Source: Phorcus lineatus
Taxonomy: Eukaryota > Mollusca > Gastropoda > Trochida > Trochidae
Direction: 5' to 3'
Assembly: GCA_921293015.1 (NCBI GenBank)
Contig: OV121087.1
Location: 6,646,501 to 6,710,500, forward strand
DNA length: 64,000 nucleotides
A program made the translations under genes and the position numbers. Under the pieces are notes generated by a model. That model had not been told where the DNA came from. It searched no databases and was given only the letters and a program-made list of their open reading frames with translations. Positions 7,166 to 43,006 of this stretch are shown here, piece after piece (positions within the stretch are counted from its first letter, which is position 1; each line of letters starts with the position of its first letter).

Positions 7166-7174
7166 AACAAAATG
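7166..7174. repeat. Left 9-bp target site duplication of the giant element
   Basis: AACAAAATG lies immediately before the left terminal inverted repeat and is repeated exactly, in direct orientation, immediately after the right one at 42998-43006. Confidence 0.88.
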
Positions 7175-7616
7175 GGTCCACGCTAAATACTAACCGCTCA
7201 GCGAGCATTCAAAATGTGGTCTGTTATCGACTTGTATGGACTTGCGGTCTATCCGTACCTTCTTGTAAAAGCGCATTTGTGATACGAAGGTTTATATACG
7301 ACAAAATTGAAACGAAGTTAAAATAAACGGCGTGTACATGCATTCACATTTAAAATTATTTCTCATCAAGTATATGTTTATTGTGCGATTTTATTAACTC
7401 GTGTAGAAATAGCCAATTCAATGATCTGATAAAATCTCTAGCAAATAAATTTCGAGGGTGAATTTTATTCGTACCTCCAATATTATTAGTTATTAAAGAA
7501 TCACATATTTGTAAAAAAAACTAAAAAACCCGAAGGATTACATTTAATTTGAGACCTAAATTGGCAGCTAGTTTTGAAATTGTGAAAAGAGTACAATCAA
7601 ACTCTACCGTAATTGA
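7175..7616. repeat. Left terminal inverted repeat segment of the giant element
   Basis: Begins GGTCCACGCTAAATA and pairs with the reverse complement of the segment ending at 42997. The match is near-perfect over the outer ~35 bp, includes the motif CCGCTCAGCGAGCATTC, and continues through GTTATCGACTTGTATG and ACTTGCGGTC. Diverged similarity persists further in: a GACAGCTAGT/GGCAGCTAGT block and a run of A followed by CCCG occur in the same order in both ends. An identical copy of this segment stands at 24180-24621, just after the assembly gap. Confidence 0.88.
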
Positions 7617-10600
7617 AAACGTAACATTTACATAAAAGATGCTACAATTATCAAACTTATATAAACGTTTAGAGGATAGAATTACCTTTCATTAGATACT
7701 AATTACACTATTTTTGAGATTCTAATACCAAGAAACAGCGATGTAAGAAATGCTCGCTGAACGGATAGCTAGTTGCAGATTGGCCTTAGTGTTGTAGCAA
7801 ATGAACTTGGAGGGAGGGTCACTTTACTAGCGCGTAACATTTACATAAAAGAAGCTGATATTATCGAACTTATATAAACGTTTAGAGGATAGAATTACCT
7901 TTCATTAGATACTAATTAGACTATTTTATGAGAATCTATTACTAAGATACAGCGATGTAAGAAATGCTCGCTGAACGGATAGCCAGTCGCAGATTGGCCT
8001 TAGAGTTGTAGCATATGAACTTTGAGGGAGGGTCACTTTACTAGCGCGTAACATTTACATAAAAGAAGCTGATATTATCGAACTTATATATACGTTAAGG
8101 GGATAGAATAACCTTTTATTAGATGCTAATTACATTATTTTATGAGATTCCATTACTAAGATACAGCGATGTAAGAAATGCTCGCTGAACGGATAGACAG
8201 TTGCAGATTGGCCTTAGTGTAGTAGCAAATGAACTTGGAGGGAGGGTCACTTTACTAGCGCGTAACATTTACATAGAATATGCTACTATTATCAAACTTA
8301 TATAAACGTTAAGGGGATAGAATAACCTTTTATTAGATGCTAATTACACTATTTTATGAGATTCCATTACTAAGATACAGCGATGTAAGAAATGCTCGCT
8401 GAACGGATAGACAGTTGCAGATTGGCCTTAGTGTAGTAGCAAATGAACTTGGAGGGAGGGTCACTTTACTAGCGCGTAACATTTACATAAAATATGCTAC
8501 TATTATCAAACTTATATACGTTAAGATGATATAATTACCTTTTATTAGATGCTAATTATATTATTTTATGAGATTCCATTACTAAGATACAGCGATGTAA
8601 AAAATGCTCGATGAACGGATAGCCAGTCGCAGATTGGCCTTAGAGTTGTAGCATATGAACTTGGAGGGAGGGTCACTTTACTAGCGCGTAACATTTACAT
8701 AAAAGAAGCTAATATTATCAAACTTATATAAACGTTTAGAAGATAGAATTACCTTTCATTAGATACTAATTACACTATTTTATGAGAATATATTACTAAG
8801 ATACAGCGATGTAAGAAATGCTCGCTGAACGGATATCCAGTCGCAGATTGGCCTTAGTGTTGTAGCAAATGAACTTGGAGGGAGGGTCACTTTACTAGCG
8901 CGTAACATTTACATAGAATATGCTACTATTATCAAACTTATATAAACGTTTAGAGGATAGAATTACCTTTCATTAGATACTAATTACACTATTTTATGAG
9001 ATTCTATTACTAAGAAACAGCGATGTAAGAAATGCTCGCTGAACGGATAGCCAGTCGCAGATTGGCCTTAGTGTTGTAGCAAATGAACTTGGAGGGAGGG
9101 TCACTTTACTAGCGCGTAACATTTACATAGAATATGCTACTATTATCAAACTTATATAAACGTTTAGAGGATAGAATTACCTTTCATTAGATACTAATTA
9201 CACTATTTTATGAGATTCTATTACTAAGAAACAGCGATGTAAAAAATGCTCGCTGAACGGATAGCCAGTCGCAGATTGGCCTTAGAGTTGTAGCATATGA
9301 ACTTGGAGGGAGGGTCACTTTACTAGCGCGTAACATTTACATAAAAGAAGCTAATATTATCAAACTTATATAAACGTTTAGAAGATAGAATTACCTTTCA
9401 TTAGATACTAATTACACTATGTTATGAGAATATATTACTAAGATACAGCGATGTAAGAAATGCTCGCTGAACGGATAGCCAGTCGCAGATTGGCCTTAGT
9501 GTTGTAGCAAATGAACTTGGAGGGAGGGTCACTTTACTAGCGCGTAACATTTACATAGAATATGCTACTATTATCAAACTTATATAAACGTTTAGAGGAT
9601 AGAATTACCTTTCATTAGATACTAGGAATGCTATTATTTGAGATTTATATACTAAGTTGCAACGATGTAAACAAATGCTCGCTGAATGGATAGCCAGTTG
9701 CAGATTGGCCTTAGCGTTGTAGCAAATGAACTTTGAGGGAGGGTCACTTTACTAGCGCGTAACATTTACATAAAAGATGCTACTATTATCAAACTTATAT
9801 ATACGTTAAGGGGATAGAATGACCTTTTATTAAATGCTAATTAAACTATTTTATGAGAATCTATTACTAAGATACAGCGATGTAAGAAATGCTCGCTGAA
9901 CGGATAGCCAGTCGCAGATTGGCCTTAGAGTTGTAGCAAATGAACTTTGAGGGAGGGTCACTTTACTAGCGCGTAACATTTACATAAAATATGCTACTAT
10001 TATCAAACTTATATACGTTAAGATGATAGAATTACCTTTTATTAGATGCTAATTACATTATTTTATGAGATTCCATTACTAAGATACAGCGATGTAAGAA
10101 ATGCTCGCTGAACGGATAGACAGTTGCAGATTGGCCTTAGTGTAGTAGCAAATGAACTTGGAGGGAGGGTCACTTTACTAGCGCGTAACATTTACATAGA
10201 ATATGCTACTATTAACAAACTTATATATACGTTAAGGGGATAGAATAACCTTTTATTAGATGCTAATTACACTATTTTATGAGATTCCATTACTAAGATA
10301 CAGCGATGTAAGAAATGCTCGCTGAACGGATAGACAGTTGCAGATTGGCCTTAGTGTAGTAGCAAATGAACTTGGAGGGAGGGTCACTTTACTAGCGCGT
10401 AACATTTACATAAAATATGCTACTATTATCAAACTTATATACGTTAAGATGATAGAATTACCTTTTATTAGATGCTAATTATATTATTTTATGAGATTCC
10501 ATTACTAAGATACAGCGATGTAAAAAATGCTCGATGAACGGATAGCCAGTCGCAGATTGGCCTTAGAGTTGTAGCATATGAACTTGGAGGGAGGGTCACT

Positions 10601-13600
10601 TTACTAGCGCGTAACATTTACATAAAAGAAGCTAATATTATCAAACTTATATAAACGTTTAGAAGATAGAATTACCTTTCATTAGATACTAATTACACTA
10701 TTTTATGAGAATATATTACTAAGATACAGCGATGTAAGAAATGCTCGCTGAACGGATAGCCAGTCGCAGATTGGCCTTAGTGTTGTAGCAAATGAACTTG
10801 GAGGGAGGGTCACTTTACTAGCGCGTAACATTTACATAGAATATGCTACTATTATCAAACTTATATAAACGTTTAGAGGATAGAATTACCTTTCATTAGA
10901 TACTAATTACACTATTTTATGAGATTCTATTACTAAGAAACAGCGATGTAAGAAATGCTCGCTGAACGGATAGCCAGTCGCAGATTGGCCTTAGTGTTGT
11001 AGCAAATGAACTTGGAGGGAGGGTCACTTTACTAGCGCGTAACATTTACATAGAATATGCTACTATTATCAAACTTATATAAACGTTTAGAGGATAGAAT
11101 TACCTTTCATTAGATACTAATTACACTATTTTATGAGATTCTATTACTAAGAAACAGCGATGTAAAAAATGCTCGCTGAACGGATAGCCAGTCGCAGATT
11201 GGCCTTAGTGTTGTAGCAAATGAACTTGGAGGGAGGGTCACTTTACCAGCGCGTAACATTTACATAAAATATGCTACTATTATCAAACTTATATACGTTA
11301 AGATGATAGAATTACCTTTTATTAGATGCTAATTACATTATTTTATGAGATTCCATTACTAAGATACAGCGATGTAAAAAATGCTCGATGAACGGATAGC
11401 CAGTCGCAGATTGGCCTTAGAGTTGTAGCAAATGAACTTGGAGGGAGGGTCACTTTACTAGCGCGTAACATTTACATAAAAGAAGCTCATATTATCGAAC
11501 TTATATAAACGTTTAGAAGATAGAATTACCTTTCATTAGATACTAATTAAACTATTTTATGAGAATATATTACTAAGAAACAGCGATGTAAGAAATGCTC
11601 GCTGAACGGATAGACAGTTGCAGATTGGCCTTAGTGTAGTAGCAAATGAACTTGGAGGGAGGGTCACTTTACTAGCGCGTAACATTTACATAGAATATGC
11701 TACTATTATCAAACTTATATAAACGTTAAGGGGATAGAATAACCTTTTATTAGATGCTAATTACACTATTTTATGAGATTCCATTACTAAGATACAGCGA
11801 TGTAAGAAATGCTCGCTGAACGGATAGACAGTTGCAGATTGGCCTTAGTGTAGTAGCAAATGAACTTGGAGGGAGGGTCACTTTACTAGCGCGTAACATT
11901 TACATAGAATATGCTACTATTATCAAACTTATATAAACGTTTAGAAGATAGAATTACCTTTCATTAGATACTAATTACACTATTTTATGAGAATATATTA
12001 CTAAGATACAGCGATGTAAGAAATGCTCGCTGAACGGATAGCCAGTCGCAGATTGGCCTTAGTGTTGTAGCAAATGAACTTGGAGGGAGGGTCACTTTAC
12101 TAGCGCGTAACATTTACATAGAATATGCTACTATTATCAAACTTATATAAACGTTTAGAGGATAGAATTACCTTTCATTAGATACTAATTACACTATTTT
12201 ATGAGATTCTATTACTAAGAAACAGCGATGTAAGAAATGCTCGCTGAACGGATAGCCAGTCGCAGATTGGCCTTAGTGTTGTAGCAAATGAACTTGGAGG
12301 GAGGGTCACTTTACTAGCGCGTAACATTTACATAGAATATGCTACTATTATCAAACTTATATAAACGTTTAGAGGATAGAATTACCTTTCATTAGATACT
12401 AATTACACTATTTTATGAGATTCTATTACTAAGAAACAGCGATGTAAAAAATGCTCGCTGAACGGATAGCCAGTCGCAGATTGGCCTTAGAGTTGTAGCA
12501 TATGAACTTGGAGGGAGGGTCACTTTACTAGCGCGTAACATTTACATAAAAGAAGCTAATATTATCAAACTTATATAAACGTTTAGAAGATAGAATTACC
12601 TTTCATTAGATACTAATTACACTATGTTATGAGATTCTATTACTAAGAAACAGCGATGTAAGAAATGCTCGCTGAACGGATAGCCAGTCGCAGATTGGCC
12701 TTAGAGTTGTAGCAAATGAACTTGGAGGGAGGGTCACTTTACTAGCGCGTAACATTTACATAGAATATGCTACTATTATCAAACTTATATAAACGTTTAG
12801 AGGATAGAATTACCTTTCATTAGATGCTAATTACACTATTTTATGAGATTCTATTACTAAGAAACAGCGATGTAAAAAATGCTCGCTGAACGGATAGCCA
12901 GTCGCAGATTGGCCTTAGAGTTGTAGCATATGAACTTGGAGGGAGGGTCACTTTACTAGCGCGTAACATTTACATAAAAGAAGCTAATATTATCAAACTT
13001 ATATAAACGTTTAGAAGATAGAATTACCTTTCATTAGATACTAATTACACTATTTTATGAGAATATATTACTAAGAAACAGCGATGTAAGAAATGCTCGC
13101 TGAACGGATAGCCAGTCGCAGATTGGCCTTAGTGTTGTAGCAAATGAACTTGGAGGGAGGGTCACTTTACTAGCGCGTAACATTTACATAGAATATGCTA
13201 CTATTATCAAACTTATATACGTTTAGAGGATAGAATTACCTTTTATTAGATGCTAATTATATTATTTTATGAGATTCCATTACTAAGATACAGCGATGTA
13301 AAAAATGCTCGATGAACGGATAGCCAGTCGCAGATTGGCCTTAGAGTTGTAGCAAATGAACTTTGAGGGAGGGTCACTTTACTAGCGCGTAACATTTACA
13401 TAAAAGAAGCTAATATTATCAAACTTATATAAACGTTTAGAAGATAGAATTACCTTTCATTAGATACTAATTACACTATTTTATGAGAATCTATTACTAA
13501 GATACAGCGATGTAAGAAATGCTCGCTGAACGGATAGCCAGTCGCAGATTGGCCTTAGTGTTGTAGCAAATGAACTTGGAGGGAGGGTCACTTTACTAGC

Positions 13601-14637
13601 GCGTAACATTTACATAGAATATGCTACTATTATCAAACTTATATAAACGTTTAGAGGATAGAATTACCTTTCATTAGATACTAATTACACTATTTTATGA
13701 GATTCTATTACTAAGAAACAGCGATGTAAGAAATGCTCGCTGAACGGATAGCCAGTTGCAGATTGGCCTTAGAGTTGTAGCAAATGAACTTGGAGGGAGG
13801 GTCACTTTACCAGCGCGTAACATTTACATAAAAGATGCTACTATTATCAAACTTACATATACGTTTAGAGGATAGAATTACCTTTCATTAGATACTAATT
13901 AGACTATTTTATGAGATTCCATTACTAAGATACAGCGATGTAAAAAATGCTCGCTGAACGGATAGCCAGTCGCAGATTGGCCTTAGTGTTGTAGCAAATG
14001 AACTTGGAGGGAGGGTCACTTTACTAGCGCGTAACATTTACATAGAATATGCTACTATTATCAAACTTATATATACGTTAAGGGGATAGAATAACCTTTT
14101 ATTAGATGCTAATTACACTATTTTATGAGATTCCATTACTAAGATACAGCGATGTAAGAAATGCTCGCTGAACGGATAGACAGTTGCAGATTGGCCTTAG
14201 TGGAGTAGCAAATGAACTTGGAGGGAGGGTCACTTTACTAGCGCGTAACATTTACATAAAATATGCTACTATTATCAAACTTATATACGTTAAGATGATA
14301 GAATTACCTTTTATTAGATGCTAATTACATTATTTTATGAGATTCCATTACTAAGATACAGCGATGTAAAAAATGCTCGCTGAATGGATAGCCAGTTGCA
14401 GATTGGCCTTAGTGTTGCAGCAAATGAACTTGGAGGGAGGGTCACTTTACTAGCGCGTAACATTTACATAAAAGAAGCTAATATTATCAAACTTATTTAA
14501 ACGTTTAGAGGATAGAATTACCTTTCATTAGATACTAATTACACTATTTTATGAGAATCTATTACTAAGATGCAGCGATGTAAAAAATGCTCGCTGAACG
14601 GATAGCCAGTCGCAGATTGGCCTTAGAGTTGTAGCAA
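7617..14637 (+). repeat. Left-arm array of ~214-bp subterminal repeats (about 33 units)
   Basis: The landmark GAGGGAGGGTCACTTTACTAG recurs every 212-215 bp (for example near 7812, 8026, 8240, 8454, 8880 and 9094). Each unit carries two well-kept boxes, ACTAGCGCGTAAC and AATGCTCGCTGAACGG, separated by more variable AT-rich sequence. Unit subtypes recur in blocks: sequence near 8480 reappears about nine units later near 10400, pointing to higher-order duplication. There is no credible open frame. Units lie in the opposite orientation to those of the right arm. Confidence 0.95.
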
Positions 14638-17245
14638 ACAACTTCTGAGAGTATCAAGGAATATTTGTACCATCTTGTATCCATACTCAAATCAAAGATA
14701 ATGCAATTACCTATCCAATGAAGTATAACACGTTATATTACATAGAGGCGGTCATACCGTAAAGCCACAATAGTGTTATTATTTACCCAAAATGATAAAC
14801 AATAACTTCTGAGAGTATCAAGGAATATTTGTACCACCTTGTACCCATACTCAAATCAAAGATAATTCAATTACCTATCCAATGAGGTATACTGCGTTAT
14901 AATACATAGAGGTGGTCATACCGTAATATCACAATAAACGTTAATATTTACCCAAAATGATAAACAACAACTTCTGAGAGTAGCAAGGAATATTTGTACC
15001 ATCTTGTACCCATACTCAAATCAAAGATAATGCAATTACCTATCCAATGAGGTATAATACATTTAAATACATAGATGCGGTCGTACCGTAAAATCACAAT
15101 AAGCGTTACAGTGTCAAAATAATAATAAACAACTTCTGAGAGTATCAAGAAATATTTGTACCACCTTGTACCCATACTCAAATGAAAGATAATGCAATTA
15201 CCTATCCAATGAGGTATAATACATTTTAATACATAGAGGCGGTCGTACCGTAAAGTCACAATAAGCGTTACTGAGTCAAAATAATAATAAACAACTTCTG
15301 AGAGTATCAAGGAATATTTGTGACACCTTGTACTCATACTCAAATCAAAGATAATTCATTTACCTATCCAATGAGGTATAACACGTTATATTACATAGAG
15401 GCGGTCATACCGTAAAGCCACCATATGCGTTATTATTTACCCAAAATGATAAACAATAATTTCTGAGAGTATCAAGGAATATTTGTACCACCTTGTACCC
15501 ATACTCAAATCAAAGATAATTCAAGTGCCTATCCAATGAGGTATACTGCGTTATAACACATAGAGGCGGTCATACCGTAATATCACAATAAGCGTTAATA
15601 TTTACCCAAAATGTTAAACAACAGCTTCTGAGAGTATCAAGGAATATTTGTACCACCTTGTACCCATACTCAAATGAAAGATAATGCAATTACCTATCCA
15701 ATGAGGTATACTGCGTTATAATACATAGAGGTGGTCATACCGTAATATCACAATAAACGTTAATATTTACCCAAAATGATAAACAACAACTTCTGAGAGT
15801 AGCAAGGAATATTTGTACCATCTTGTACCCATACTCAAATCAAAGATAATGCAATTACCTATCCAATGAGGTATAATACATTTAAATACATAGATGCGGT
15901 CGTACCGTAAAATCACAATAAGCGTTACAGTGTCAAAATAATAATAAACAACTTCTGAGAGTATCAAGAAATATTTGTACCACCTTGTACCCATACTCAA
16001 ATGAAAGATAATGCAATTACCTATCCAATGAGGTATAATACATTTTAATACATAGAGGCGGTCGTACCGTAAAGTCACAATAAGCGTTACTGAGTCAAAA
16101 TAATAATAAACAACTTCTGAGAGTATCAAGGAATATTTGTGACACCTTGTACTCATACTCAAATCAAAGATAATTCATTTACCTATCCAATGAGGTATAA
16201 CACGTTATATTACATAGAGGCGGTCATACCGTAAAGCCACCATATGCGTTATTATTTACCCAAAATGATAAACAATAATTTCTGAGAGTATCAAGGAATA
16301 TTTGTACCACCTTGTACCCATACTCAAATCAAAGATAATTCAAGTGCCTATCCAATGAGGTATACTGCGTTATAATACATAGAGGCGGTCATACCGTAAT
16401 ATCACAATAAGCGTTAATATTTACCCAAAATGTTAAACAACAGCTTCTGAGAGTATCAAGGAATATTTGTACCACCTTGTACCCATACTCAAATGAAAGA
16501 TAATGCAATTACCTATCCAATGAGGTATAATACATTTTAATACATAGAGACCGTCGTATCGTAAAGTCACAATAAGCGTTACTTTGTCAAAATAATAATA
16601 AACAACTTCTGAGAGTATCAAGGAATATTTGTACCACCTTGTACCCATACTCAAACCAAAGATAATTCAATTACCTATCCAATGAAGTATAACACGTTAT
16701 ATTACATAGAGGCGGTCATACCGTAATATCACAATAAACGTTACTATTTACCCAAAATGATAAACAACAACTTCTGAGAGTATCAAGGAATATTTGTACC
16801 ACCTTGTACCCATACTCAAATCAAAGATATATCAATTACCTATCCAATGAGGTATACTGCGTTATTATACATAGAGGCGGTCATACCGTAAAGCCACAAT
16901 ATGCGTTATTATGTACCCAAAATGATAAACAACAACTTCTGAGAGTATCAAGGAATATTTGTACCACCTTGTACCCATACTCAAATCAAAGATATTTCAA
17001 TTACCTATCCAATGAGGTATACTGCGTTATTATACATAGAGGCGGTCATACCGTAATATCACAATAAGCGTTAAGATTTACCCAAAATGTTAAACAACAA
17101 CTTCTGAGAGTATCAAGGAATATTTGTACCACCTTGTACCCATACTCAAATGAAAGACAATTTAATGACCTATCCAATGAGGTATAATACGTTATATTAC
17201 ATAGAGGCGGTCATACCGTAATATCACAAAAAGCGCAACTGTGTA
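14638..17245 (+). repeat. Central array of ~164-bp tandem repeats, first copy (about 16 units)
   Basis: Units starting ACTTCTGAGAGTATCAAGG recur every 162-165 bp (14642, 14806, 14971, 15133, 15295 and onward). Each contains ACCCATACTCAAAT, CCTATCCAATGAGGTATA and GAGGCGGTCATACCGTAA, the last holding a short CGGT-N3-ACCG dyad. A five-unit block of 819 bp is duplicated almost exactly: the sequence at 14948-15343 recurs at 15767-16162. Increasingly decayed units can be followed to about 17790. The array abuts the left arm directly at TTGTAGCAAA. Identical 131-codon frames on the minus strand here are by-products of the repeat and not genes. Confidence 0.95.
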
Positions 17246-17799
17246 CCAACTATTTGAGTTGGGTTATTCTTGTTTGAATCTTCTTAGAGCGTCAAGGAAT
17301 GTTTGTACCACCTTGTTTTTATACTCAAATGAAAGATAATTCAATTACCTATAAAATGAAGTATAATGCGTTTTAATATATAGAAGCATACGTACCGTAA
17401 AAGAAAAAAAATTGTTACTGTGTACTCAAAATGTTAAACCGTGAATCAGTACCCAAGCGGAAATTCTTCAAATGCATTGAGAAGTTGGTGTATTAATAGA
17501 ACGTTTCTGGACTACTTCTTAGGTACCAAGGTGTATTTGAACCACAGTGTAAGTATTCTCAACTTAGAGATAAATTAATAACCTATTCCTTTTTTGCTCA
17601 GTTATTGTACGTTTACTTGTATATAATAATAAACAGAACTATGTTTTTTTCTTAATTTTCGGAAGTAACGATGTCTTGCTTACAAAAGAATCTGTAACGA
17701 TATCCATCTGTAAGATTCAAAATTTCTATTAAGTCAGATGTACAAATGTAATACATGTACATTGAGGCAGCCATACCCTTAAGTCCATAGAACAGGGCT
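17246..17799. repeat. Decayed margin of the 164-bp array
   Basis: Diverged units remain recognisable: TCAAGGAATGTTTGTACCACC near 17292, GGTACCAAGGTGTATTTGAACC near 17520, and ACATTGAGGCAGCCATACCC near 17758. Similarity falls steadily toward the core. Confidence 0.6.
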
Positions 17800-19642
17800 T
17801 ACTTTAGTGTTAACTTGACGGAAATGACGATTTGTGAGGGTATCAGAAACAGACCCTTAATATATATTCGATTTATTTTGATGATGGACCTTAATGTACA
17901 GACAGGAAACCAAAACGATTACATCATTCACAACGACAACAACATATACACCTGGCAGAAGGTTTTGCAACATAACCACTTCTTTAATTCTGTCTATGTA
18001 ATGTAGGCAATCTGAGAACATTAGGGGCTTCCAAATTTCAAAACTCTTCTGACAATTGCATTATCAGAACAAAATGGAACCTCAGCGTCCTGTTCAATAA
18101 AAGAGACGTTTCCGGGTAACTATTTGTGCTCACTGGGGTTGCACAACTAAAGGTTTTCTTTCATGTTTCTTTATTTTCAGTAATGAGTAGATGTCAGTAA
18201 ATGTTGACACCCATCTCTTCTTATCAAATATTGCTGTCACAGCAAAACCTTTTCGACTATGAAATTTGGATGTGAATTACCTTTTACAAAAATGTATCGA
18301 TATAATTACTTTAGATGTTTACGGTTCTTATATCTGCAAACACTGTTCAACCTGACAAAAAAACTTTAATATGAAATAGATCCTTAATGTTAATCGAATG
18401 TCAAGATTGTGCAGTCGTTGGCAATGTATAGATTGAAGAAGTAACCGAAAAATCAGTCTTAATCGAAAGTTCAAATACTTCTCTTGAAGCATATGGAATT
18501 AAGAACAAAAGTGACCTCTATGAAAATATCAATGATGTGGTTTATGCGGTAGTATGTATAATGTCATCTGCAGATTAATGTAACAAGCAACGTTTTGGAA
18601 ACTTTTCACGAGCGCTAGCTATGATGTTGAATATAGAACTTTACGTAATGAGATTGTTTTAGAATATAACTTTGAGGTACATATTGACAGAATTTAAAAA
18701 ATCTAACTAACTCATTTCGTCGACAATGTCACACCAAATTCAGCAATTACGAGAAAATTTTTATTGATCTGATGTCATCAAATTAAAAAAAACCCGTTTT
18801 TGTACCAAATTAAACGTCTGGTAATTGATACATCAGCAACTTTAAATCACAGAGAATCATAGAGTCGATCACTATCAAAACGTTATGAACATAAGTCATA
18901 ACAATATTGACCAAAGCCATGTTAGAGAAGAATGTTCATTTCTAGCAGAGTGTGATATATTTATCTGTTGTGCCTGTGAAAATGATGAGACCATAAACAA
19001 TACCGTGAACTGTGAGATGAAACAAAATGAAGTAATTTATGCCATTAATAATCTGATAGACGTCAAAGCGCAAGGTCATTATGCAAGACCTACAGAAATG
19101 ATAAAATGTGGTAAATCCAAACTCATACCATTTTTGCATGTTAAGTTAAATACTGTTTTGAACAACAGGAAATTCCCCATTAAATGGCCTAGGATACTAG
19201 CCTTACCACTCAACAAGAAAGGCAAGAAACATACGTTAATCATTATTGAGGAATAACGTAATATTGTTGGCAACCTTTAACATTTATACTTAACAAGAGG
19301 TTGGCAAGTTTTTGTGATAAGACAACTGAGTCTCAAGGTAGGTTCCGTGCTGGATACAGCACAATAGTAATATATATTTTTGTTCTACAGTATCTAGTTA
19401 AAAATATTTCTAAAACTCAATCTCATTATTTTGACAAAATAGGTGGCGTCATAGAGACATGTGCTTCAAATCTTTTCTTTTTTCTCTCTCTGTTGTTGAA
19501 TTGCAAACTTACAGGAATTGAACGTTCGAAAGTATTCATTTGTCAAGAGGTTTTTGATATTTTGTACTTATTTTATACTGATGATATGAGAGTATCTTAC
19601 TGGTGAAACTTTAATTGTTTTAGAAAGATAGATTATCGGAAC
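17800..19642 (+). pseudogene. Degraded LINE in the element core, first copy (endonuclease to reverse transcriptase)
   Basis: Broken plus-strand coding traces of a non-LTR retrotransposon. Near 17880-17945 a frame reads DLNVQTGNQNDYI, resembling the GDFNARTG motif of LINE endonucleases. Near 18120-18260 weaker traces resemble the end of that domain. At 18885-19256 a 123-codon frame contains NEVIYAINNLIDVKAQG and EMIKCGKSKLIPFL, then LNNRKFPIKWPRILALPLNKKG, which matches the start of LINE reverse transcriptases. At 19301-19606 RFRAGYSTIVIYIFVLQYL is followed by LYLFYTDDM, where the usual catalytic YADD reads YTDD. Stops and frameshifts separate the blocks, and a deletion seems to lie between the GYST and YTDD blocks. 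The clade is uncertain. The copy is not functional, and it encodes no DNA transposase. Confidence 0.68.
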
Positions 19643-20521
19643 AGTTAAGCACAATCTCATTAAAATAAAATCTACGTTACGCAGACTATAGATCTCACTA
19701 GGCTCCCTTACTCAAGCCGTCAGGTTAACCTTAGACTCAGTTTGACCTCAAAATCTCATTGGCTTGCCGCAGATACCTTCAAGCAATCACAATGCGCGTC
19801 TCTTGGTAGCCTTCAAAGAAGATACAAGTAGCAGACGTTGAAGTTAAAACTCTTATAAATTTTCCATTTTACAGTGGTCAAGTTGAAGTCATTTGCATAT
19901 GTCTATAAATATCATATAACACAGCAGATTTAGTTATAACATTTCACTCTTTGACGAAACAAGGGTCAATCTCATTGGCATATATACGTAGCATATGATT
20001 ATTATATAATTATCAAGAAACTTAGTATTGGTATTTGTACATGCTTTCGTTGTTTGTGTTTCTCAGGATGTTTATGATTAATTTGTTTCACGAAATGTAA
20101 AATTATTCAACGATTACAACAAGCTAAAAGACGAAACGTTTCTTCAACGTAACTGCTTCCAAAATAAGCATTTGGATTGATACGGTCTACTTAAGGATAA
20201 CGTTGAGGAATGCAGATTTTGCCTTGCGAAAGATAACTCCATAGCTTCGATTTGGCTTGTTTGTACAACAAACCAAGCTAGGGTAAATTGAATGTACATA
20301 AAATACATTAATTCGGGTATTTAGCCAGTTTGACATTCGGAAAACATTCGGAAGTTTGCGGTTTCCGAGATCTGAAAAGCGTACGGGGCGAATTCGCTGA
20401 TTGGCTGATTTGAAATATGTCAGAGGCAAACCTGACGGCTCACTTAACGGAAACTGATGAGATCTACAGGCGTGATCTTGTGGAGCATGTAGATTTCATT
20501 TCAATGAGATTGAGTTAAGCA
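19643..20521. mobile_element. Nested inverted-repeat element of 861 bp with 9-bp target duplication, first copy
   Basis: AGTTAAGCA at 19643-19651 and again at 20513-20521 flanks an element running 19652-20512. Its ends are CAATCTCATT and AATGAGATTG. Inverted similarity continues inward for about 110 bp with gaps: AATAAAATCTAC pairs with GTAGATTTCATT, TAGATCTCA with TGAGATCTA, and GCCGTCAGGTT with AACCTGACGGC. It carries no convincing coding region; the 80-codon minus-strand frame at 20187-20429 is unrecognised. Element length, long imperfect inverted repeats and the 9-bp duplication suggest a non-autonomous Mutator-like transposon, which is inference. It inserted just downstream of the LINE remnant. 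Confidence 0.8.
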
Positions 20522-20889
20522 TGAAATGGGGTCTAGATGTCAATCTAGATTAAACTGAAAATAAAGATTTTAGAAATTGGAGTAAAGGTTCTCTGAAAAT
20601 TGTGTGTTTGGCAAAACATTTATTAAAAAATCACACTAAACCATTAATTTTGGTTAACAGTTTCAAACCCGTTTTAATGGTGTTGATGTCCTCGTTCAGA
20701 AGACATGAAGTACTAAGAATTTACAATACAAGTTTAAGAATATATACCCGTTAATTCAATTCACTTTTCTGTTGCGCGGATAAAGAAAATGTTGTCGTAC
20801 CCTAGTCAAATGTGGGATCATTCAAAATTTGGATCTACCTTTAATAATTAATGTTGGCAAACGTGGCACCATTTTTTAAATAGTAAATT
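20522..20889. other. Core sequence with no assigned feature, first copy
   Basis: Single-copy-looking AT-rich sequence between the nested element and the minisatellite. Nothing recognisable was seen on either strand. Confidence 0.5.
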
Positions 20890-21200: not shown

Positions 21201-21304
21201 GAATGGTTTCAGGTTTATCTGTGACAAAAGAAGTTCCTCTTCACCGAACATATTTCGATCAAGTCGGTGTATATGTCATTATATAGAGGATATTATGTGA
21301 GTGT

Positions 21305-24172: not shown

Positions 24173-24179
24173 GTCTCCT

Positions 24180-31306: not shown

Positions 31307-32185
31307 AGTTAAGCACAATCTCATTAAAATAAAATCTACGTTACGCAGACTATAGATCTCACTAGGCTCCCTTACTCAAGCCGTCAGGTTAACCTTAGAC
31401 TCAGTTTGACCTCAAAATCTCATTGGCTTGCCGCAGATACCTTCAAGCAATCACAATGCGCGTCTCTTGGTAGCCTTCAAAGAAGATACAAGTAGCAGAC
31501 GTTGAAGTTAAAACTCTTATAAATTTTCCATTTTACAGTGGTCAAGTTGAAGTCATTTGCATATGTCTATAAATATCATATAACACAGCAGATTTAGTTA
31601 TAACATTTCACTCTTTGACGAAACAAGGGTCAATCTCATTGGCATATATACGTAGCATATGATTATTATATAATTATCAAGAAACTTAGTATTGGTATTT
31701 GTACATGCTTTCGTTGTTTGTGTTTCTCAGGATGTTTATGATTAATTTGTTTCACGAAATGTAAAATTATTCAACGATTACAACAAGCTAAAAGACGAAA
31801 CGTTTCTTCAACGTAACTGCTTCCAAAATAAGCATTTGGATTGATACGGTCTACTTAAGGATAACGTTGAGGAATGCAGATTTTGCCTTGCGAAAGATAA
31901 CTCCATAGCTTCGATTTGGCTTGTTTGTACAACAAACCAAGCTAGGGTAAATTGAATGTACATAAAATACATTAATTCGGGTATTTAGCCAGTTTGACAT
32001 TCGGAAAACATTCGGAAGTTTGCGGTTTCCGAGATCTGAAAAGCGTACGGGGCGAATTCGCTGATTGGCTGATTTGAAATATGTCAGAGGCAAACCTGAC
32101 GGCTCACTTAACGGAAACTGATGAGATCTACAGGCGTGATCTTGTGGAGCATGTAGATTTCATTTCAATGAGATTGAGTTAAGCA
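31307..32185. mobile_element. Nested 861-bp inverted-repeat element with 9-bp duplication, second copy
   Basis: Matches 19643-20521 at offset 11,664. The element body is 31316-32176, with AGTTAAGCA on both sides. Because the duplication and insertion point are shared, the nested insertion happened before the two copies separated. Confidence 0.8.
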
Positions 32186-32553
32186 TGAAATGGGGTCTAG
32201 ATGTCAATCTAGATTAAACTGAAAATAAAGATTTTAGAAATTGGAGTAAAGGTTCTCTGAAAATTGTGTGTTTGGCAAAACATTTATTAAAAAATCACAC
32301 TAAACCATTAATTTTGGTTAACAGTTTCAAACCCGTTTTAATGGTGTTGATGTCCTCGTTCAGAAGACATGAAGTACTAAGAATTTACAATACAAGTTTA
32401 AGAATATATACCCGTTAATTCAATTCACTTTTCTGTTGCGCGGATAAAGAAAATGTTGTCGTACCCTAGTCAAATGTGGGATCATTCAAAATTTGGATCT
32501 ACCTTTAATAATTAATGTTGGCAAACGTGGCACCATTTTTTAAATAGTAAATT
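32186..32553. other. Core sequence with no assigned feature, second copy
   Basis: Corresponds to 20522-20889. Nothing recognisable was seen. Confidence 0.5.
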
Positions 32554-32864
32554 ACAGGTGGCCCATGTGTGCATCTTAGATGCGTGTGACCTGTGGTGCC
32601 ATGTGTGCTTCTTGCTCCCAATGGTGACATGTGTGTATCTAGGGTGCTTGTATTTGTCCAATGTGTCCATCTTTGGTGCTTTGATGATTCAATGTGTTCA
32701 TATTGGGTGATTGTTACTTGCGGTCGTATGTGTGCATCTTTGGTATTACAGGTGGCCCATGTGTGAATCTTGGGTGCTTCTGATGACCCATGTGTGCATA
32801 TCTGGTGCTTGTATCTGGTAGTCCATGGTGTGCATCTTTGGTATGTGCTTCCATGTGTGGGACA
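32554..32864. repeat. Degenerate CATGTGTGCATCTT minisatellite, second copy
   Basis: Same as 20890-21200, about ten imperfect 28-37 bp units with no length change. Confidence 0.85.
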
Positions 32865-32968
32865 GAATGGTTTCAGGTTTATCTGTGACAAAAGAAGTTC
32901 CTCTTCACCGAACATATTTCGATCAAGTCGGTGTATATGTCATTATATAGAGGATATTATGTGAGTGT

Positions 32969-33034
32969 CCATGACATACTATGTTTACGACACGAATGCC
33001 TAAATATTAGTGTCGTAAACATAGTATGTCATGG
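32969..33034. repeat. Perfect 25-bp inverted repeat, second copy
   Basis: Arms at 32969-32993 and 33010-33034 with a 16-nt loop, matching the hairpin at 21305-21370. Confidence 0.95.
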
Positions 33035-33381
33035 CCACGGTACGAATATGATATTCTGTTTATTACCGAAGTCCCGAAATCAAATGAAATTACCAAAATC
33101 GACATCCGAGCATATGCGGTTTACCCGCCACCTTCAAATAGAACGCAATGTCGTAGGCGAACTGAGACGTCAAAACATTGTATATGACGTGACGCCACAA
33201 TGAAAAGTGATATTGTTATGTCGTGAGATTAAAAGTAAGTTAGAATATGGGTTTTTAGGAAATATTAAGTATATTTAAAATAAGGTTAGAATAGTGAGAT
33301 ATTATTTGAAAGTAGCAAATGTGTAGACAAAAGACATAATAAGACAGGTGATCAAAAGGTGCGTGTTCTTTAGTTATTAAT

Positions 33382-36300
33382 TATGAGCATTTTTTACATC
33401 GCTGTATCTTAGTAATGGAATCTCATAAAATAGTCTAATTAGTATCTAATGAAAGGTAATTCTATCTTCTAAACGTTTATATAAGTTTGATAATAGTAGC
33501 ATCTTCTATATAATTGTTACGCGCTAGTGAAGAGACCCCCCCCCCCTCCAAGTCCATTTGCTACAACAGCAAGGCCAATCTGCGACTGGCTATCCATTCA
33601 GCGAGCATTTGCTTACATCGTTGCAACTTAGTATATAAATCTCAAATAATAGCATTCCTAGTATCTAATGAAAGGTAATTCTATCCTCTAAACGTTTATA
33701 TAAGTTTGATAATAGTAGTATCTTTTATGTAAATGTTACGCGCTAGTAAAGAGACCCTCCCTCCAAATCCATTTGCTACAACTCTAAGGCCAATCTGCAA
33801 CTGGCTATCCATTCAGCGAGCATTTTTTATATCGCTGTATCTTAGTAAAGGAATCTCATAAAATAATGTAATTAGCATTTAATAAAAGGTCATTCTATCC
33901 CCTTAACGTATATATAAGTTTGATAATAGTAGCATCTTTTATGTAAATGTTACGCGCTAGTAAAGTGACCCTCCCTCCAAGTTCATTTGCTACAACGCTA
34001 AGGCCAATCTGCAACTGGCTATCCATTCAGCGAGCATTTGTTTACATCGTTGCAACTTAGTATATAAATCTCAAATAATAGCATTCTTAGTATCTAATGA
34101 AAGGTAATTCTATCCTCTAAAGGTTTATATAAGTTAGATAATAGTAGCATCTTTTATGTAAATGTTACGCGCTAGTAAAGAGACCCTCCCTCCAAGTTCA
34201 TTTGCTACAACTCTAAGGCCAATCTGCAACTGGCTATCCATTCAGCGAGCATTTGTTTACATCGTTGCAACTTAGTATATAAATCTCAAATAATAGCATT
34301 CTTAGTATCTAATGAAAGGTAATTCTATCCTCTAAACGTTTATATAAGTTTGATAATAGTAGCATATTTTATGTAAATGTTACGCGCTAGTAAAGTGACC
34401 CTCCCTCCAAGTTCATTTGCTACAACTCTAAGGCCAATCTGCAACTGGCTATCCGTTCAGCGAGTATTTATTACATCGCTGTATCTTAGTAATGGAATCT
34501 CATAAAATAATGTAATTAGCATTTAATAAAAGGTCATTCTATCCCCTTAACGTATATATAAGTTTGATAATAGTAGCATCTTTTATGTAAATGTTACGCG
34601 CTAGTAAAGTGACCCTCCCTCCAAGTTCATTTGCTAAAACTCTAAGGCCAATCTGCAACTGGCTATCCGTTCAGCGAGCATTTTTTACATCGCTGTATCT
34701 TAGTAATGGAATCTCATAAAATAATGTAATTAGCATCTAATAAAATGTCATTTTATCCCCTTAACGTATATTTAAATATGATAATAGTAGCATATTTTAT
34801 GTAAATGTTACGCGCTAGTAAAGAGACCCTCCCTCCAAATTCATTTGCTACAACGCTAAGGCCAATCTGCAACTGGCTATCCATTCAGCGAGCATTTGTT
34901 TACATCGTTGCAACTTAGTATATAAATCTCAAATAATAGCATTCCTAGTATCTAATGAAAGGTAATTCTATCCTCTAAACGTTTATATAAGTTAGATAAT
35001 AGTAGCATCTTTTATGTAAATGTTACGCGCTAGTAAAGAGACCCTCCCTCCAAGTTCATTTGCTACAACTCTAAGGCCAATCTGCAACTGGCTATCCATT
35101 CAGCGAGCATTTTTTACATCGCTGTATCTTAGTAAAGGAATCTCATAAAATAATGTAATTAGCATTTAATAAAAGGTCATTCTATCCCCTTAACGTATAT
35201 ATAAGTTTGATAATAGTAGCATCTTTTATGTAAATGTTACGCGCTAGTAAAGTGACCCTCCCTCAAAGTTCATTTGCTACAACGCTAAGGCCAATCTGCA
35301 ACTGGCTATCCATTCAGCGAGCATTTGTTTACATCGTTGCAACTTAGTATATAAATCTCAAATAATAGCATTCCTAGTATCTAATGAAAGGTAATTCTAT
35401 CCTCTAAACGTTTATATAAGTTTGATAATAGTAGCATATTTTATGTAAATGTTACGCGCTAGTAAAGTGACCCTCCCTCCAAGTTCATTTGCTACAAAGG
35501 CCAATCTGCAACTGGCTATCCGTTCAGCGAGTATTTATTACATCGCTGTATCTTAGTAATGGAATCTCATAAAATAATGTAATTAGCATTTAATAAAAGG
35601 TCATTCTATCCCCTTAACGTATATATAAGTTTGATAATAGTAGCATCTTTTATGTAAATGTTACGCGCTAGTAAAGTGACCCTCCCTCCAAGTTCATTTG
35701 CTAAAACTCTAAGGCCAATCTGCAACTGGCTATCCGTTCAGCGAGCATTTTTTACATCGCTGTATCTTAGTAATGGAATCTCATAAAATAATGTAATTAG
35801 CATCTAATAAAATGTCATTTTATCCCCTTAACGTATATTTAAATATGATAATAGTAGCATATTTTATGTAAATGTTACGCGCTAGTAAAGTGACCCTCCC
35901 TCCAAGTTCATTTGCTACAACGCTAAGGCCAATCTGCAACTGGCTATCCATTCAGCGAGTATTTGTTTACATCGTTGCAACTTAGTATATAAATCTCAAA
36001 TAATAGCATTCCTAGTATCTAATGAAAGGTAATTCTATCCTCTAAACGTTTATATAAGTTAGATAATAGTAGCATCTTTTATGTAAATGTTACGCGCTAG
36101 TAAAGAGACCCTCCCTCCAAGTTCATTTGCTACAACTCTAAGGCCAATCTGCAACTGGCTATCCATTCAGCGAGCATTTTTTACATCGCTGTATCTTAGT
36201 AAAGGAATCTCATAAAATAATGTAATTAGCATTTAATAAAAGGTCATTCTATCCCCTTAACGTATATATAAGTTTGATAATAGTAGCATCTTTTATGTAA

Positions 36301-39300
36301 ATGTTACGCGCTAGTAAAGTGACCCTCCCTCAAAGTTCATTTGCTACAACGCTAAGGCCAATCTGCAACTGGCTATCCATTCAGCGAGCATTTGTTTACA
36401 TCGTTGCAACTTAGTATATAAATCTCAAATAATAGCATTCCTAGTATCTAATGAAAGGTAATTCTATCCTCTAAACGTTTATATAAGTTTGATAATAGTA
36501 GCATATTTTATGTAAATGTTACGCGCTAGTAAAGTGACCCTCCCTCCAAGTTCATTTGCTACAACTCTAAGGCCAATCTGCAACTGGCTATCCATTCAGC
36601 GAGCATTTGTTTACATCGTTGCAACTTAGTATATAAATCTCAAATAATAGCATTCCTAGTATCTAATGAAAGGTAATTCTATCTTCTAAACGTTTATATA
36701 AGTTAGATAATAGTAGCATCTTTTATGTAAATGTTACGCGCTAGTAAAGAGACCCTTCCTCCAAGTTCATTTGCTACAACTCTAAGGCCAATCTGCAACT
36801 GGCTATCCATTCAGCGAGCATTTTTTACATCGCTGTATCTTAGTAAAGGAATCTCATAAAATAATGTAATTAGCATTTAATAAAAGGTCATTCTATCCCC
36901 TTAACGTATATATAAGTTTGATAATAGTAGCATCTTTTATGTAAATGTTACGCGCTAGTAAAGTGACCCTCCCTCAAAGTTCATTTGCTACAACGCTAAG
37001 GCCAATCTGCAACTGGCTATCCATTCAGCGAGCATTTGTTTACATCGTTGCAACTTAGTATATAAATCTCAAATAATAGCATTCCTAGTATCTAATGAAA
37101 GGTAATTCTATCCTCTAAACGTTTATATAAGTTAGATAATAGTAGCATCTTTTATGTAAATGTTACGCGCTAGTAAAGTGACCCTCCCTCCAAGTTCATT
37201 TGCTACAACACTAAGGCCAATCTGCAACTGGCTATCCGTTCAGCGAGCATTTGTTTACATCGTTGCAACTTAGTATATAATTCTCAAATAATAGTATTTC
37301 TAGTATCTAATGAAAGGTTATTCTATCTTCTTAACTTTTATATAAGTTTTATATAGTAGCATCTTCTTTATAATTGTTACGCGCTAGTAAAGTGACCCTC
37401 CCTCCAAGTTCATTTGCTACAACACTAAGGCCAATCTGCAACTGGCTATCCGTTCAGCGAGCATTTGTTTACATCGTTGCAACTTAGTATATAAATCTCA
37501 AATAATAGCATTCCTAGTATCTAATGAAAGGTTATTCTATCTTCTTAACTTTTATATAAGTTTTATATAGTAGCATCTTCTATATAATTGTCACGCGCTA
37601 GTGAAGAGACCCCCCCCCCCTCCAAGTCCATTTGCTACAACAGCAAGGCCAATCTGCGACTGGCTATCCATTCAGCGAGCATTTGTTTACATCGTTGCAA
37701 CTTAGTATATAAATCTCAAATAATAGCATTCCTAGTATCTAATGAAAGGTAATTCTATCCTCTAATCGTTTATATAAGTTTGATAATAGTAGCATCTTTT
37801 ATGTAAATGTTACGCGCTAGTAAAGTGACCCTCCCTCCAAGTTCATTTGCTACAACTCTAAGGCCAATCTGCAACTGGCTATCCGTTCAGCGAGCATTTT
37901 TTACATCGCTGTATCTTAGTAATGGAATCTCATAAAATAATGTAATTAGCATCTAATAAAATGTCATTTTATCCCCTTAACGTATATTTAAATATGATAA
38001 TAGTAGCATCTTTTATGTAAATGTTACGCGCTAGTAAAGTGACCCTCCCTCCAAGTTCATTTGCTACAACACTAAGGCCAATCTGCAACTGGCTATCCAT
38101 TCTGCGAGCATTTGTTTACATCGTTGCAACTTAGTATATAAATCTCAAATAATAGCATTCCTAGTATCTAATGAAAGGTAATTCTATCCTCTAAACGTTT
38201 ATATAAGTTTGATAATAGTAGCATCTTTTATGTAAATGTTACGCGCTAGTAAAGTGACCCTCCCTCCAAGTTCATTTGCTACAACTCTAAGGCCAATCTG
38301 CAACTGGCTATCCGTTCAGCGAGTATTTATTACATCGCTGTATCTTAGTAATGGAATCTCATAAAATAATGTAATTAGCATTTAATAAAAGGTCATTCTA
38401 TCCCCTTAACGTATATATAAGTTTGATATTAGTAGCATCTTTTATGTAAATGTTACGCGCTAGTAAAGTGACCCTCCCTCCAAGTTCATTTGCTACAACA
38501 CTAAGGCCAATCTGCAACTGGCTATCCGTTCAGCGAGCATTTGTTTACATCGTTGCAACTTAGTATATAAATCTCAAATAATAGCATTCCTAGTATCTAA
38601 TGAAAGGTTATTCTATCTTCTTAACTTTTATATAAGTTTTATATAGTAGCATCTTCTATATAATTGTCACGCGCTAGTGAAGAGACCCCCCCCCCCTCCA
38701 AGTCCATTTGCTACAACAGCAAGGCCAATCTGCGACTGGCTATCCATTCAGCGAGCATTTGTTTACATCGTTGCAACTTAGTATATAAATCTCAAATAAT
38801 AGCATTCCTAGTATCTAATGAAAGGTAATTCTATCCTCTAATCGTTTATATAAGTTTGATAATAGTAGCATCTTTTATGTAAATGTTACGCGCTAGTAAA
38901 GTGACCCTCCCTCCAAGTTCATTTGCTACAACTCTAAGGCCAATCTGCAACTGGCTATCCGTTCAGCGAGCATTTTTTACATCGCTGTATCTTAGTAATG
39001 GAATCTCATAAAATAATGTAATTAGCATCTAATAAAATGTCATTTTATCCCCTTAACGTATATTTAAATATGATAATAGTAGCATCTTTTATGTAAATGT
39101 TACGCGCTAGTAAAGTGACCCTCCCTCCAAGTTCATTTGCTACAACACTAAGGCCAATCTGCAACTGGCTATCCATTCAGCGAGCATTTGTTTACATCGT
39201 TGCAACTTAGTATATAAATCTCAAATAATAGCATTCCTAGTATCTAATGAAAGGTAATTCTATCCTCTAAACGTTTATATAAGTTTGATAATAGTAGCAT

Positions 39301-42300
39301 CTTTTATGTAAATGTTACGCGCTAGTAAAGTGACCCTCCCTCCAAGTTCATTTGCTACAACTCTAAGGCCAATCTGCAACTGGCTATCCGTTCAGCGAGT
39401 ATTTATTACATCGCTGTATCTTAGTAATGGAATCTCATAAAATAATGTAATTAGCATTTAATAAAAGGTCATTCTATCCCCTTAACGTATATATAAGTTT
39501 GATATTAGTAGCATCTTTTATGTAAATGTTACGCGCTAGTAAAGTGACCCTCCCTCCAAGTTCATTTGCTACAACACTAAGGCCAATCTGCAACTGGCTA
39601 TCCGTTCAGCGAGCATTTGTTTACATCGTTGCAACTTAGTATATAAATCTCAAATAATAGCATTCCTAGTATCTAATGAAAGGTTATTCTATCTTCTTAA
39701 CTTTTATATAAGTTTTATATAGTAGCATCTTCTATATAATTGTTACGCGCTAGTGAAGAGACCCCCCTCCAAGTCCATTTGCTACAACAGTAAGGCCAAT
39801 CTGCGACTGGCTATCCATTCAGCGAGCATTTGTTTACATCGTTGCAACTTAGTATATAAATCTCAAATAATAGAATATCTAGTATATAAGGAAAGGTTAT
39901 TCTATCCTCTAAACGTATATAACGATTTGATAATGGTAGCATCTTCTATATAAATGTTACGCGCTAGTAAAGTAAACCCACCATGGAGTTCATTTGTCAA
40001 ACACTGAGGCCAATTTTCTACTGGCTATCCATTCAGTGAGCATTATTTACTTCGCTGCTCCTTATTAATTAAATCTCAAATATTAGTAAATCTAGTATCT
40101 GATGAAAGGTTATTCTATCCTCGTCACGTATATATAGGTTTGATAATAGTAGCATATTCTATATAAATAGAACGCGCTAGTGAATACACCCACCTTGGAG
40201 TCCGTTTGCTGCAACACTGATGCCAATCTGCGACTGGCTATCCATTCAGCGAGCTTCTCCTTAGTAATTCAATGTCAAATAATAGTATGTGTAGTATCTA
40301 CATAAAGGTAATTCTATCCTCTAAACATATTTATAGGTTTGATAATAGTAGCATCTTTTATATAAATGGTAAGCGCTAGTAAAGTGACCCGCCCTCCAAG
40401 TCCATATGCTACATCACTATTGCCAATCAGCGACTGGCTATCCATTCAGCGAGCATTTGTTAACATCGTTGCTCCTCATCAATTAAATCTCATATAATAG
40501 TATTTCTAGTACCTAATGAAAAGTTATTCTATCGTCTTAACGGATATGTAGGTTTAATAATAGTTGCATCTTCTATTAAAATACTACACGCTAGTAAAGC
40601 GACCCGCCCTCCAAGTTCATTTCCTATAACACTATGGCCAATTTGCAACTGGCTATCCGCTCAGCGAACATATTTTACTGCGCTGCTACTTAGTATTTAA
40701 ATCTCAAATAATAGTATATGTAGTATCTACATAAAGTTAATTCTATCCTCTAAACATATATATAGGTTTGATAACAGTAGCATCTTCTATATAAATGGTA
40801 CGCGCTAGTAAAGTGACCCGCCCTCCAAGTCCATATGCTACATCACGATGGCCAATCAGCGACTGGCAATCCATTCAGCGAGCATTTGTTTACATCGTTG
40901 CTCCTTAGTAATTAAATCTCAAATGATAGTATATCTAGTATATAATAAAACGTAATTCTACCCTCTGAACGTATATGTAGATTTGGTAATAGTAGCATCT
41001 TCTATGGAAATGTTACGCGCTAGTAAAGTGACCCGCCCTCGAAGTCCATTTCCTATGACACTATGGCCAATTTTGGTGTGGATATCCGTTCAGCGAGCAT
41101 TTTTGTATATCACTGCTAGTTATCAATCAAATCTCAAATGATAATATATATAGTATGTAATGAAAGGTTATTCTATCCTCTAAACGTATATGACGAGTTG
41201 ATAATGGAAGCATCCTCTATATAAATGTCACGCGCTAGTAAAGTGACCCACCTTCGAGTTCATTTGCTTTTACGGTGAGGCCAATTTTCGACTGGCTATC
41301 CATTCAGCGAGCATTATTTACTTCGCTTCTCCTTAGTAATTAAATGTCAAATAATAGTATGTGTAGTATCTAATGAACGGTAATTCTATCCTCTAAACAT
41401 ATATATAGGTTTGATAATAGTAGCATCTTTTATATAAATGGTAAGCGCTAGTAAAGTGACCCGCCCTCCAAGTCCATATGCTACATCACTATTGCCAATC
41501 AGCGACTGGCTATCCATTCAGCGAGCATTTGTTAACATCGTTGCTCCTCATTAATTAAATCTCATATAATATTATTTCTAGTATGTAATGAGAGGTTGTT
41601 CTATCCTCTTAACGTTTATATAGATTTGTTAATAGTAGCATCTTCTATAAAAATGTTACGAGCTAGTAAAGTGACCCGCCCTCGAAGTTCATTTCTTATA
41701 ACACTTAATCCAATGTGCGTCTGGCTGTCCATTCAGCGAGCATTTTTTACTTCGCTGCTTCTTAGTAATTAAATCTCAAATGATAGTATATCTAGTATCT
41801 AATGAAAGGTAATTCTATCCTCTTAAGGTATATAAAGGTTTGATAGTAGTAGCATCTTCTATATAAATGGTACGAGCTAGTAAAGTGACCCGCCCTCAAA
41901 GTTCATTACCTATAACACTGTGGCCAATTTTCGAGTGGATATCCGTTCAGCGAGCATTTTGTTTACATCGTTGCTCGTTATTAATAAAATCTCAAATAAT
42001 AGTGTATGTAGTATCTTATGAAAGGTAATTATATTCTCTTAACGTATTTATAGGTTTAATAATAGTAGCATCTTCTATAACAATGTTATGCGCTAGTAAA
42101 GTGACCCGCCCTCGAAGTTCATTTCCTATAATACTAAGGCCAGTCTGCAACTGGCTATCCGTTCAGCGAGCATATTTTACTGCGCTTCTCCTTATTAATT
42201 AAATCTCAAATAATAGTATATCTAGTATCTACTTAAATGTAATTCTATCCTCCAAACTTATATATAGGTTTGATAATAGTAGCATTTTCTATATAAATGG

Positions 42301-42310
42301 TACGCGCTAG
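33382..42310 (-). repeat. Right-arm array of ~214-bp repeats (about 42 units)
   Basis: Reverse-complement counterpart of the left arm. Inner units (33382 to about 39900) are very alike and form higher-order repeats: a C-rich variant (GTGAAGAGACCCCCC) occurs at 37591, 38667 and 39742, spacing 1,075-1,076 bp or five units. Outer units (about 39950-42310) are much more diverged, yet still keep GCTAGTAAAGTGACCC and CTATCCATTCAGCGAGCAT. No coding potential is evident. Confidence 0.95.
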
Positions 42311-42997
42311 TAAAGAGAAGTAAAAGAGGGGAGTTGAAAGTGAGAGGTGCAGGTGAAGTTACATTTTGTTCAGATATATAATTAATGAGAAACTCCAATT
42401 TAAAATACGGTAGCATTAGACTAATCTTTAATCTCTTCACTATTTGAACACTAGCTGTCACATTATAAGTATCAAATTAATAGTAAACCAACGGGTTTTT
42501 TTTACAAAATATATGTATTGCTTTAATCGAGGACGTGTATAGACCTGCATAAATTTTCGTTTTAAAAACTTCCATTTATTGGGCACGTTTTAGTATGATC
42601 ATTCGATACATAACTTGTGGGATCAATTGGCGACTTGCTATATCTACATCAATTAAATGAGATTTTTACATAGAGTCTCTTGGTGTTATGAATAAAACCA
42701 AACAAAACCATGCAAACATATATTTTATTTGAAATAAATAAACATATTGAGGCATATACACGTCGTAAAATTAAACTTAGATTAATTATCTCGTATCAAA
42801 GCGTATATATATAAAACATTCGTATAATTTAAATTGGTGTGCATTATAGTTACACATATGAATTGTCGGCCTGAATCGTCTCCAGCGCACCACAAACGCG
42901 CTTTGACAATGAGGCAAGGCAAGACCGCAAGTTCATACAAGTCGATAACTGACCATTTTAAGAATGCTCGCTGAGCGGATACTATTTAGCGTGGACC
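42311..42997. repeat. Right terminal inverted repeat segment of the giant element
   Basis: Reverse complement of this segment starts GGTCCACGCTAAATAGTATCC and follows the left end through GCTCAGCGAGCATTC, GTTATCGACTTGTATGAAC and TTGCGGTC. Diverged blocks shared with the left end lie further in, near 42430-42510. It is about 245 bp longer than the left segment. Confidence 0.85.
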
Positions 42998-43006
42998 AAC
43001 AAAATG
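42998..43006. repeat. Right 9-bp target site duplication of the giant element
   Basis: AACAAAATG directly after the right terminus, identical to 7166-7174. Confidence 0.88.

Follow-up and report, generated by a model that had tools for sequence, protein, structure and literature searches.

We analysed a 64,000-nucleotide window of the gastropod Phorcus lineatus (contig OV121087.1, positions 6,646,501 to 6,710,500; C12:6646501-6710500) and searched the species' own assembly (957.8 Mb, 74 contigs) for related sequences. Positions 7175-42997 of this window very probably represent a single inserted DNA transposon of foldback type, non-autonomous and here called family A (native length ~15-24 kb), displayed as two overlapping contig ends. 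As the first-pass annotation had noted, inverted termini are present with an exact 9-bp repeat outside them: the target site duplication AACAAAATG lies at 7166-7174 (forward strand), directly outside the left inverted terminus, and again at 42998-43006 (forward strand). The left terminal domain (7175-7619, forward strand, 445 bp) begins with the terminus GGTCCACGCTAAATA at 7175 and contains a 16-bp motif at 7194-7209; the right terminal domain (42319-42997, reverse strand, 679 bp) ends with GGTCCACGCTAAATA at 42997 and contains the motif at 42963-42978. The arrays of ~214-bp units previously described in opposite orientation were likewise located, at 7620-14638 and 33385-42315. We delimit the left arm as 33 tandem units (7620-14637, forward strand) and the right arm as ~42 tandem units of 214-215 bp (33385-42318, reverse strand).

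Next to the left arm, on its inner side, lies a 165-bp satellite of 15.8 units (14638-17235, forward strand), the counterpart of the left arm of a second foldback family, B. It is followed by a core (17426-21720, forward strand), of which 17843-21549 is common to family B. The core carries a nested insert of 861 bp (19652-20512) resembling a miniature inverted-repeat transposable element (MITE), with AGTTAAGCA duplications at 19643-19651 and 20513-20521 (whole feature 19643-20521, forward strand). The first 10-11 units of a right arm (21721-23972, reverse strand) are truncated by an assembly gap of 200 N (23973-24172). Beyond the gap stand seven nucleotides, GTCTCCT (24173-24179), a second left terminal domain (24180-24624, forward strand) identical to 7175-7619, and a second left arm of only 8 units (24625-26301, forward strand). 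The 165-bp satellite and the core then appear a second time (26302-28899 and 29090-33384, both forward strand), identical to 14638-17235 and 17426-21720, respectively.

There is strong support for identifying a transposon of foldback type whose arms are satellites, because other paired copies carry their own target duplications. A 31-bp terminus pattern, allowing up to 3 mismatches, found 27 sites in the genome, and the reversed control pattern found none. Twenty-two of these form 11 pairs; the remainder comprise the window's second left terminus and four unpaired sites (C9, C29, C17:17.53 Mb and C32:44.78 Mb). Matches to the left end numbered 37, and right ends at 98% or more numbered 10. Target duplications of 8-10 bp flank 9 of the 11 pairs: exact 10-bp duplications in six (C1a, C11, C15b, C16, C1b and C2), 10 bp with a one-base shift in C39, 9 bp in the window copy, and 8 bp beside an altered terminal base in C15a. 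The two pairs that lack a duplication (C32 and C5) weigh against this identification. A chance match of the outer 9-mers is ruled out by the 27 sites against none in the control and by the duplications in 9/11 pairs. The proposed check for other paired ends flanked by duplications thus succeeded genome-wide. With long inverted arms of tandem subrepeats and dispersed copies bearing target duplications, family A has the features of the foldback class; that part of the first-pass annotation stands, and its giant size does not.

Eight gap-free young copies were read in whole; the C2 copy (33.7 kb) and the older C17 and C2:65 Mb pairs lie outside this set. The eight copies measure 14,999-28,280 bp, with left arms of 7-50 units, right arms of 19-40 units and 165-bp arrays of 2.8-13 units (15.8 in the window). 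Nested inserts enlarge C39 (~4.9 kb) and C1b (~7.1 kb). The C39 insert, in the right arm (L051:1657-3051), holds a frame that bears a C2H2 zinc finger and matches adenovirus IVa2 (packaging ATPase) weakly, below the cut-off; the C1b insert, in the left arm (L060:3511-5331), holds a reverse transcriptase frame (PF00078) that looks DIRS-like by eye. C5 is an older copy of 6,666 bp with 4 left and 7 right units. Amplification of family A is recent, because the cores of nine elements differ by 7-29 substitutions over ~4.2-4.3 kb (11-24 between the window core and the others). As to the suggested origin of satellite DNA in this genome, a search with a left unit scored 37 of 53 candidate places; the best matches listed (part of 533) all fell inside family A copies, and no free-standing 214-bp array occurred among them.

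The centre of the element appears to have a different origin from its arms. In a genome search with the window core, in which 40 of 4,676 candidates were scored, at least 20 loci that do not belong to family A matched core segment 418-2226 or part of it at 92-98%, mostly with segment 3088-4124 adjoining. A complete family B element of 10,383 bp lies at C2:3293351-3303733. It has 76-bp inverted termini beginning GGCAGTGTGAAGTTGG, a 9-bp duplication, AATGACGAC, flanking each end, and inverted arms of the window's 165-bp unit (13.7 and 18 units) around the shared middle. Because this complete element combines 165-bp arms with the shared middle, the central satellite of the window can be assigned to the B left arm and the core to the B middle; family A has neither the B right arm nor either of the B ends. 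Since the centre of family A belongs to another foldback family, the window element reads as a hybrid, with A arms around a B left arm and middle. The second satellite and core previously described between the arms are indeed present, the satellite as a 165-bp array, but both belong to family B. Insertion or recombination may have given family A the centre of a B element, with loss of the B right arm and both ends.

Several B copies bear on the core. The C2 element shows the empty site of the MITE-like insert, with a single AGTTAAGCA, and the matches to three B copies extend across the insert (C1:21.37 Mb, 98%; C15:20.58 Mb, 97%; C25:20.63 Mb, 95%). The B terminus occurs at 171 sites in the genome, against 0 for the control; 100 listed sites served for the analyses of pairing and of transposase proximity, and they yielded at least 30 forward-reverse pairs 0.9-16 kb apart. 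At C2:31535598-31545073, four forward B termini ~2.2 kb apart and one reverse terminus resemble tandemly arranged copies of a short B-type element. A coding core is not supported: none of six open reading frames in the core matched a Pfam family over the cut-off; two resemble a decayed reverse transcriptase of a long interspersed nuclear element (LINE) by eye, without confirmation from Pfam.

The two arms appear to have changed in different ways. Left arms contain exact twin units and repeated blocks, with up to 28 of 50 units having a twin in their own arm; no twins occur in four short left arms. Among right units, 173 of 268 have their nearest match in another element, C16 being the exception. 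Right arms were probably carried through transposition as arrays, because in 34 of 36 element pairs the stretch of unit order that they have in common exceeds that of each of 20 shuffles; for left arms this holds in 4 of 36 pairs. The left-arm figure counts against transport of both arrays intact, and the left arms would have been rebuilt since transposition or moved while shorter. Under the mechanism that we propose, the element would have transposed whole, arrays included, and array length would have changed later through unequal exchange.

A motif shared by termini and arms suggests how such arms might act. The 16-bp motif CCGYTCAGCGAGCATT, allowing up to 2 mismatches, occurs at 94 sites in the window, where 0 are expected; three are at termini and 91 in the arms, and nearly every arm unit has one. 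It starts at the 20th nucleotide of all 11 left and all 10 right ends examined, and the arm copies are oriented opposite to the terminal copy of their own side. Conservation was ranked over units of 205-222 bp, without the right units of the first window contig and the left units of the second. In left units (n = 230) the motif window is the most conserved of 199. The motif is a likely transposase site, at which binding would take place, and its copies in the arms may serve as accessory binding sites.

Two observations weigh against such a role: in right units (n = 272) the motif window ranks 21st of 199, with one position split and the overlapping AAAAATGCTCGCTGAA among the top windows, and comparison of the 76-bp family B terminus with two 165-bp units gave no match longer than 10 bp and none that was significant. 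Because family B shows no comparable sharing between terminus and unit, accessory arm sites would not be a general rule here. There is accordingly a considerable chance, somewhat short of even, that the arms are passive satellites in which the motif was copied a single time, along with the founding unit, plays no part in transposition and owes its conservation to recent homogenisation. The twin units and repeated blocks of the left arms fit this explanation, as do the family B arms and the other windows equally conserved in right units. The first rank of the motif in left units and its consistent opposite orientation speak for a function instead, as does Galileo of Drosophila, whose arms hold extra transposase-binding sites demonstrated by gel shift in the accessible text of the source (PMC3688188).

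We propose that a transposase of the Mutator-like element (MULE) type, supplied in trans, would recognise the A ends, with the motif as its likely site. A MULE profile search of the genome, in which 150 of 521 candidates were scored, gave at least 150 transposase domains over the family cut-off, many in open frames longer than 300 aa. For family B, membership of the MULE superfamily is supported by one copy, L065, through a MULE domain between B termini. This copy has both B termini (88 and 97%), inverted arms resembling the 165-bp unit and, between the arms, a 308-aa open frame matching PF10551 (E 8.6e-11). One listed B terminus lies within 10 kb (at 4.9 kb) of one of the 150 listed MULE matches, where 0.31 would be expected by chance. 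The MULE link for the outer A arms rests on duplication length and architecture: the 8-10 bp duplications of 9/11 pairs fall within the 8-11 bp given for MULEs in the accessible text of PMC6446971.

Several results weigh against a MULE-type transposase for family A. No transposase was found inside family A elements, and no MULE match lay within 87 kb of 36 A ends among the 150 scored of 521. L065 is a single case, its flanking 9-mers agree at 7/9 positions, and its MULE may be a nested insertion. It is conceivable, if rather doubtful, that family A was moved by a non-MULE transposase and that only its middle came from a MULE-type family. The lack of MULE matches near any A terminus favours this, as does the occurrence of foldback architecture in several superfamilies, for example in Galileo with its P-type transposase, according to the accessible parts of PMC3169594 and PMC3688188; the length of the duplications and the abundance of MULE domains in the genome speak against it. 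The MULE/Foldback lineage suggested by the first-pass annotation is thus upheld in part, by a MULE domain in one copy of the family that supplied the core, with none for family A among the matches scored.

The two sides of the assembly gap are most likely overlapping contig ends of one element shown partly twice, because the middle is identical across the gap and closer than any two different elements. Positions 14638-21720 and 26302-33384 agree at every one of 7,083 bases; the two cores show 0/4,295 differences, against 7-29 substitutions between different elements. The second left terminus at 24180 is identical to 7175-7695 at 521/521 bases, and 21721-23972, which holds the inner 10 right-arm units, agrees with the corresponding stretch beyond the gap at 2,251/2,252 bases. 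Possibly, the two sides are two alleles of one element. Counting 7175-21720 (14,546 bp) and 33385-42997 (9,613 bp) once each gives an estimated length of ~24.2 kb, calculated without assembly. Two observations weigh against the one-element reading: GTCTCCT, rather than AACAAAATG, precedes the second left terminus, and the left arms have 33 versus 8 units, with exact matches in the first arm for units 1 and 6 only. These favour two different A elements, one truncated by the gap and a second at 24180-42997 (18.8 kb), for example a very recent daughter copy, joined by the scaffolder or in a chimeric contig, but we consider this improbable, given that the outer 9-mers agree across the gap, that the core, the 165-bp array and the inner right-arm units are closer than in any two other copies, and that the outermost left unit is exclusive to the two window arms among the copies compared. 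A simple deletion of the first left arm to give the second is ruled out, as no unit of the second arm other than 1 and 6 has an exact match. A single continuous 35.8-kb element is ruled out by the 200-N gap, the second left terminus and the repeated middle, none of which the first-pass annotation had mentioned; its giant scale and coordinates were inflated accordingly.

Elements of this kind have precedents, described here from the accessible parts of the cited sources. Tetris, a foldback of Drosophila virilis, has a variable number of ~220-bp tandem repeats and 8-10 bp duplications (PMC4079207), and the inverted termini of Rehavkus-1_TC, from the red flour beetle, contain a 164-bp satellite (PMC10218199); the earlier statement that no described family has ~214-bp arm units therefore does not hold. 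Like family A, Tetris has a terminal flanking domain followed by repeats, an inner domain and a non-coding middle; terminus and repeat share a stretch (37 bp in Tetris, the 16-bp motif in family A); no encoding transposase was found; and there is a link to satellite DNA. Some long arrays within Tetris elements were seen by fibre fluorescence in situ hybridization (PMC4079207). Compared by description, Tetris differs in that its sequenced arms reach at most 1,735 bp with few units, versus 7-50 here, and in that the accessible text describes no second satellite family in the middle.

The Rehavkus group resembles family A, again by description, in its 9-bp duplications and its relation to MULEs (PMC6446971); family A differs from Rehavkus-1_TC in having two satellites and no transposase found. 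A PHD finger in the transposase would point to Rehavkus; the 308-aa frame of family B matched PF10551 only and may be one exon. Tm1 of root-knot nematodes shares foldback-like composite termini and 9-bp duplications, with non-autonomous and MULE-encoding members, and differs in its 13-15 bp repeats, small elements and lack of satellite-length units in the accessible account (PMC3169594). Galileo also has long inverted arms with tandem repeats, and differs in a P-type transposase with a THAP domain and arms described as longer than 1 kb (PMC3688188). In the literature searched, which included few subscription journals and was seen in part, neither a hybrid between two satellite-armed families nor a complete sequenced copy with arms of 50 units was seen. 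The kind of element is already known from Tetris, Rehavkus-1_TC and Tm1; the novelty appears to lie in the hybrid and in the scale that sequenced copies reach.

The positions of several insertions are suggestive of a location near gene 5' ends. The C11 insertion is 45 bp upstream of the RUVBL1 start, whose first 48 residues align with residues 1-48 of RuvB-like 1; the corresponding distance from the C15a insertion to a conserved frame with 56 homologues is 23 bp. The window copy stands ~1.8 kb upstream of the first coding exon, as judged by eye, of what we take to be a BLTP1/KIAA1109-like gene. Forward-strand exons at 44800-63963 read like BLTP1/KIAA1109, and homologues of a 586-aa stretch in a later exon (62203-63963) mostly carry PF20413. 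Four other apparent gene starts near insertions gave no Pfam match. Elsewhere in the window, a separate 32-bp satellite (2499-4480, 61.9 copies, 98% match) lies 2.7 kb left of the insertion, and a 185-aa open frame at 666-1223 (reverse strand) looks by eye like the end of a LINE reverse transcriptase.

How satellites originate and spread is an open question. In family A, an arm can reach 50 satellite units in young copies whose target duplications are intact, and the second satellite leads back to the arms of a different transposon family. Because the copies are young, right-arm order can be tracked and the second satellite has been traced, the growth, transport and exchange of arrays become testable on datable insertions. 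Such elements also interrupt long-range assemblies and invite misreading as a single giant element. Tentatively, and as a possibility less likely than its alternatives, foldback transposons in this genome may swap satellite arms and cores as modules, with the arms of the A and B hybrid (up to ~50 units, each bearing the terminal motif oppositely oriented) acting as accessory-site arrays that let 15-24 kb move whole. If this modular exchange is true, it would be transposition that spreads, lengthens and recombines satellite arrays, and they would not arise in place.
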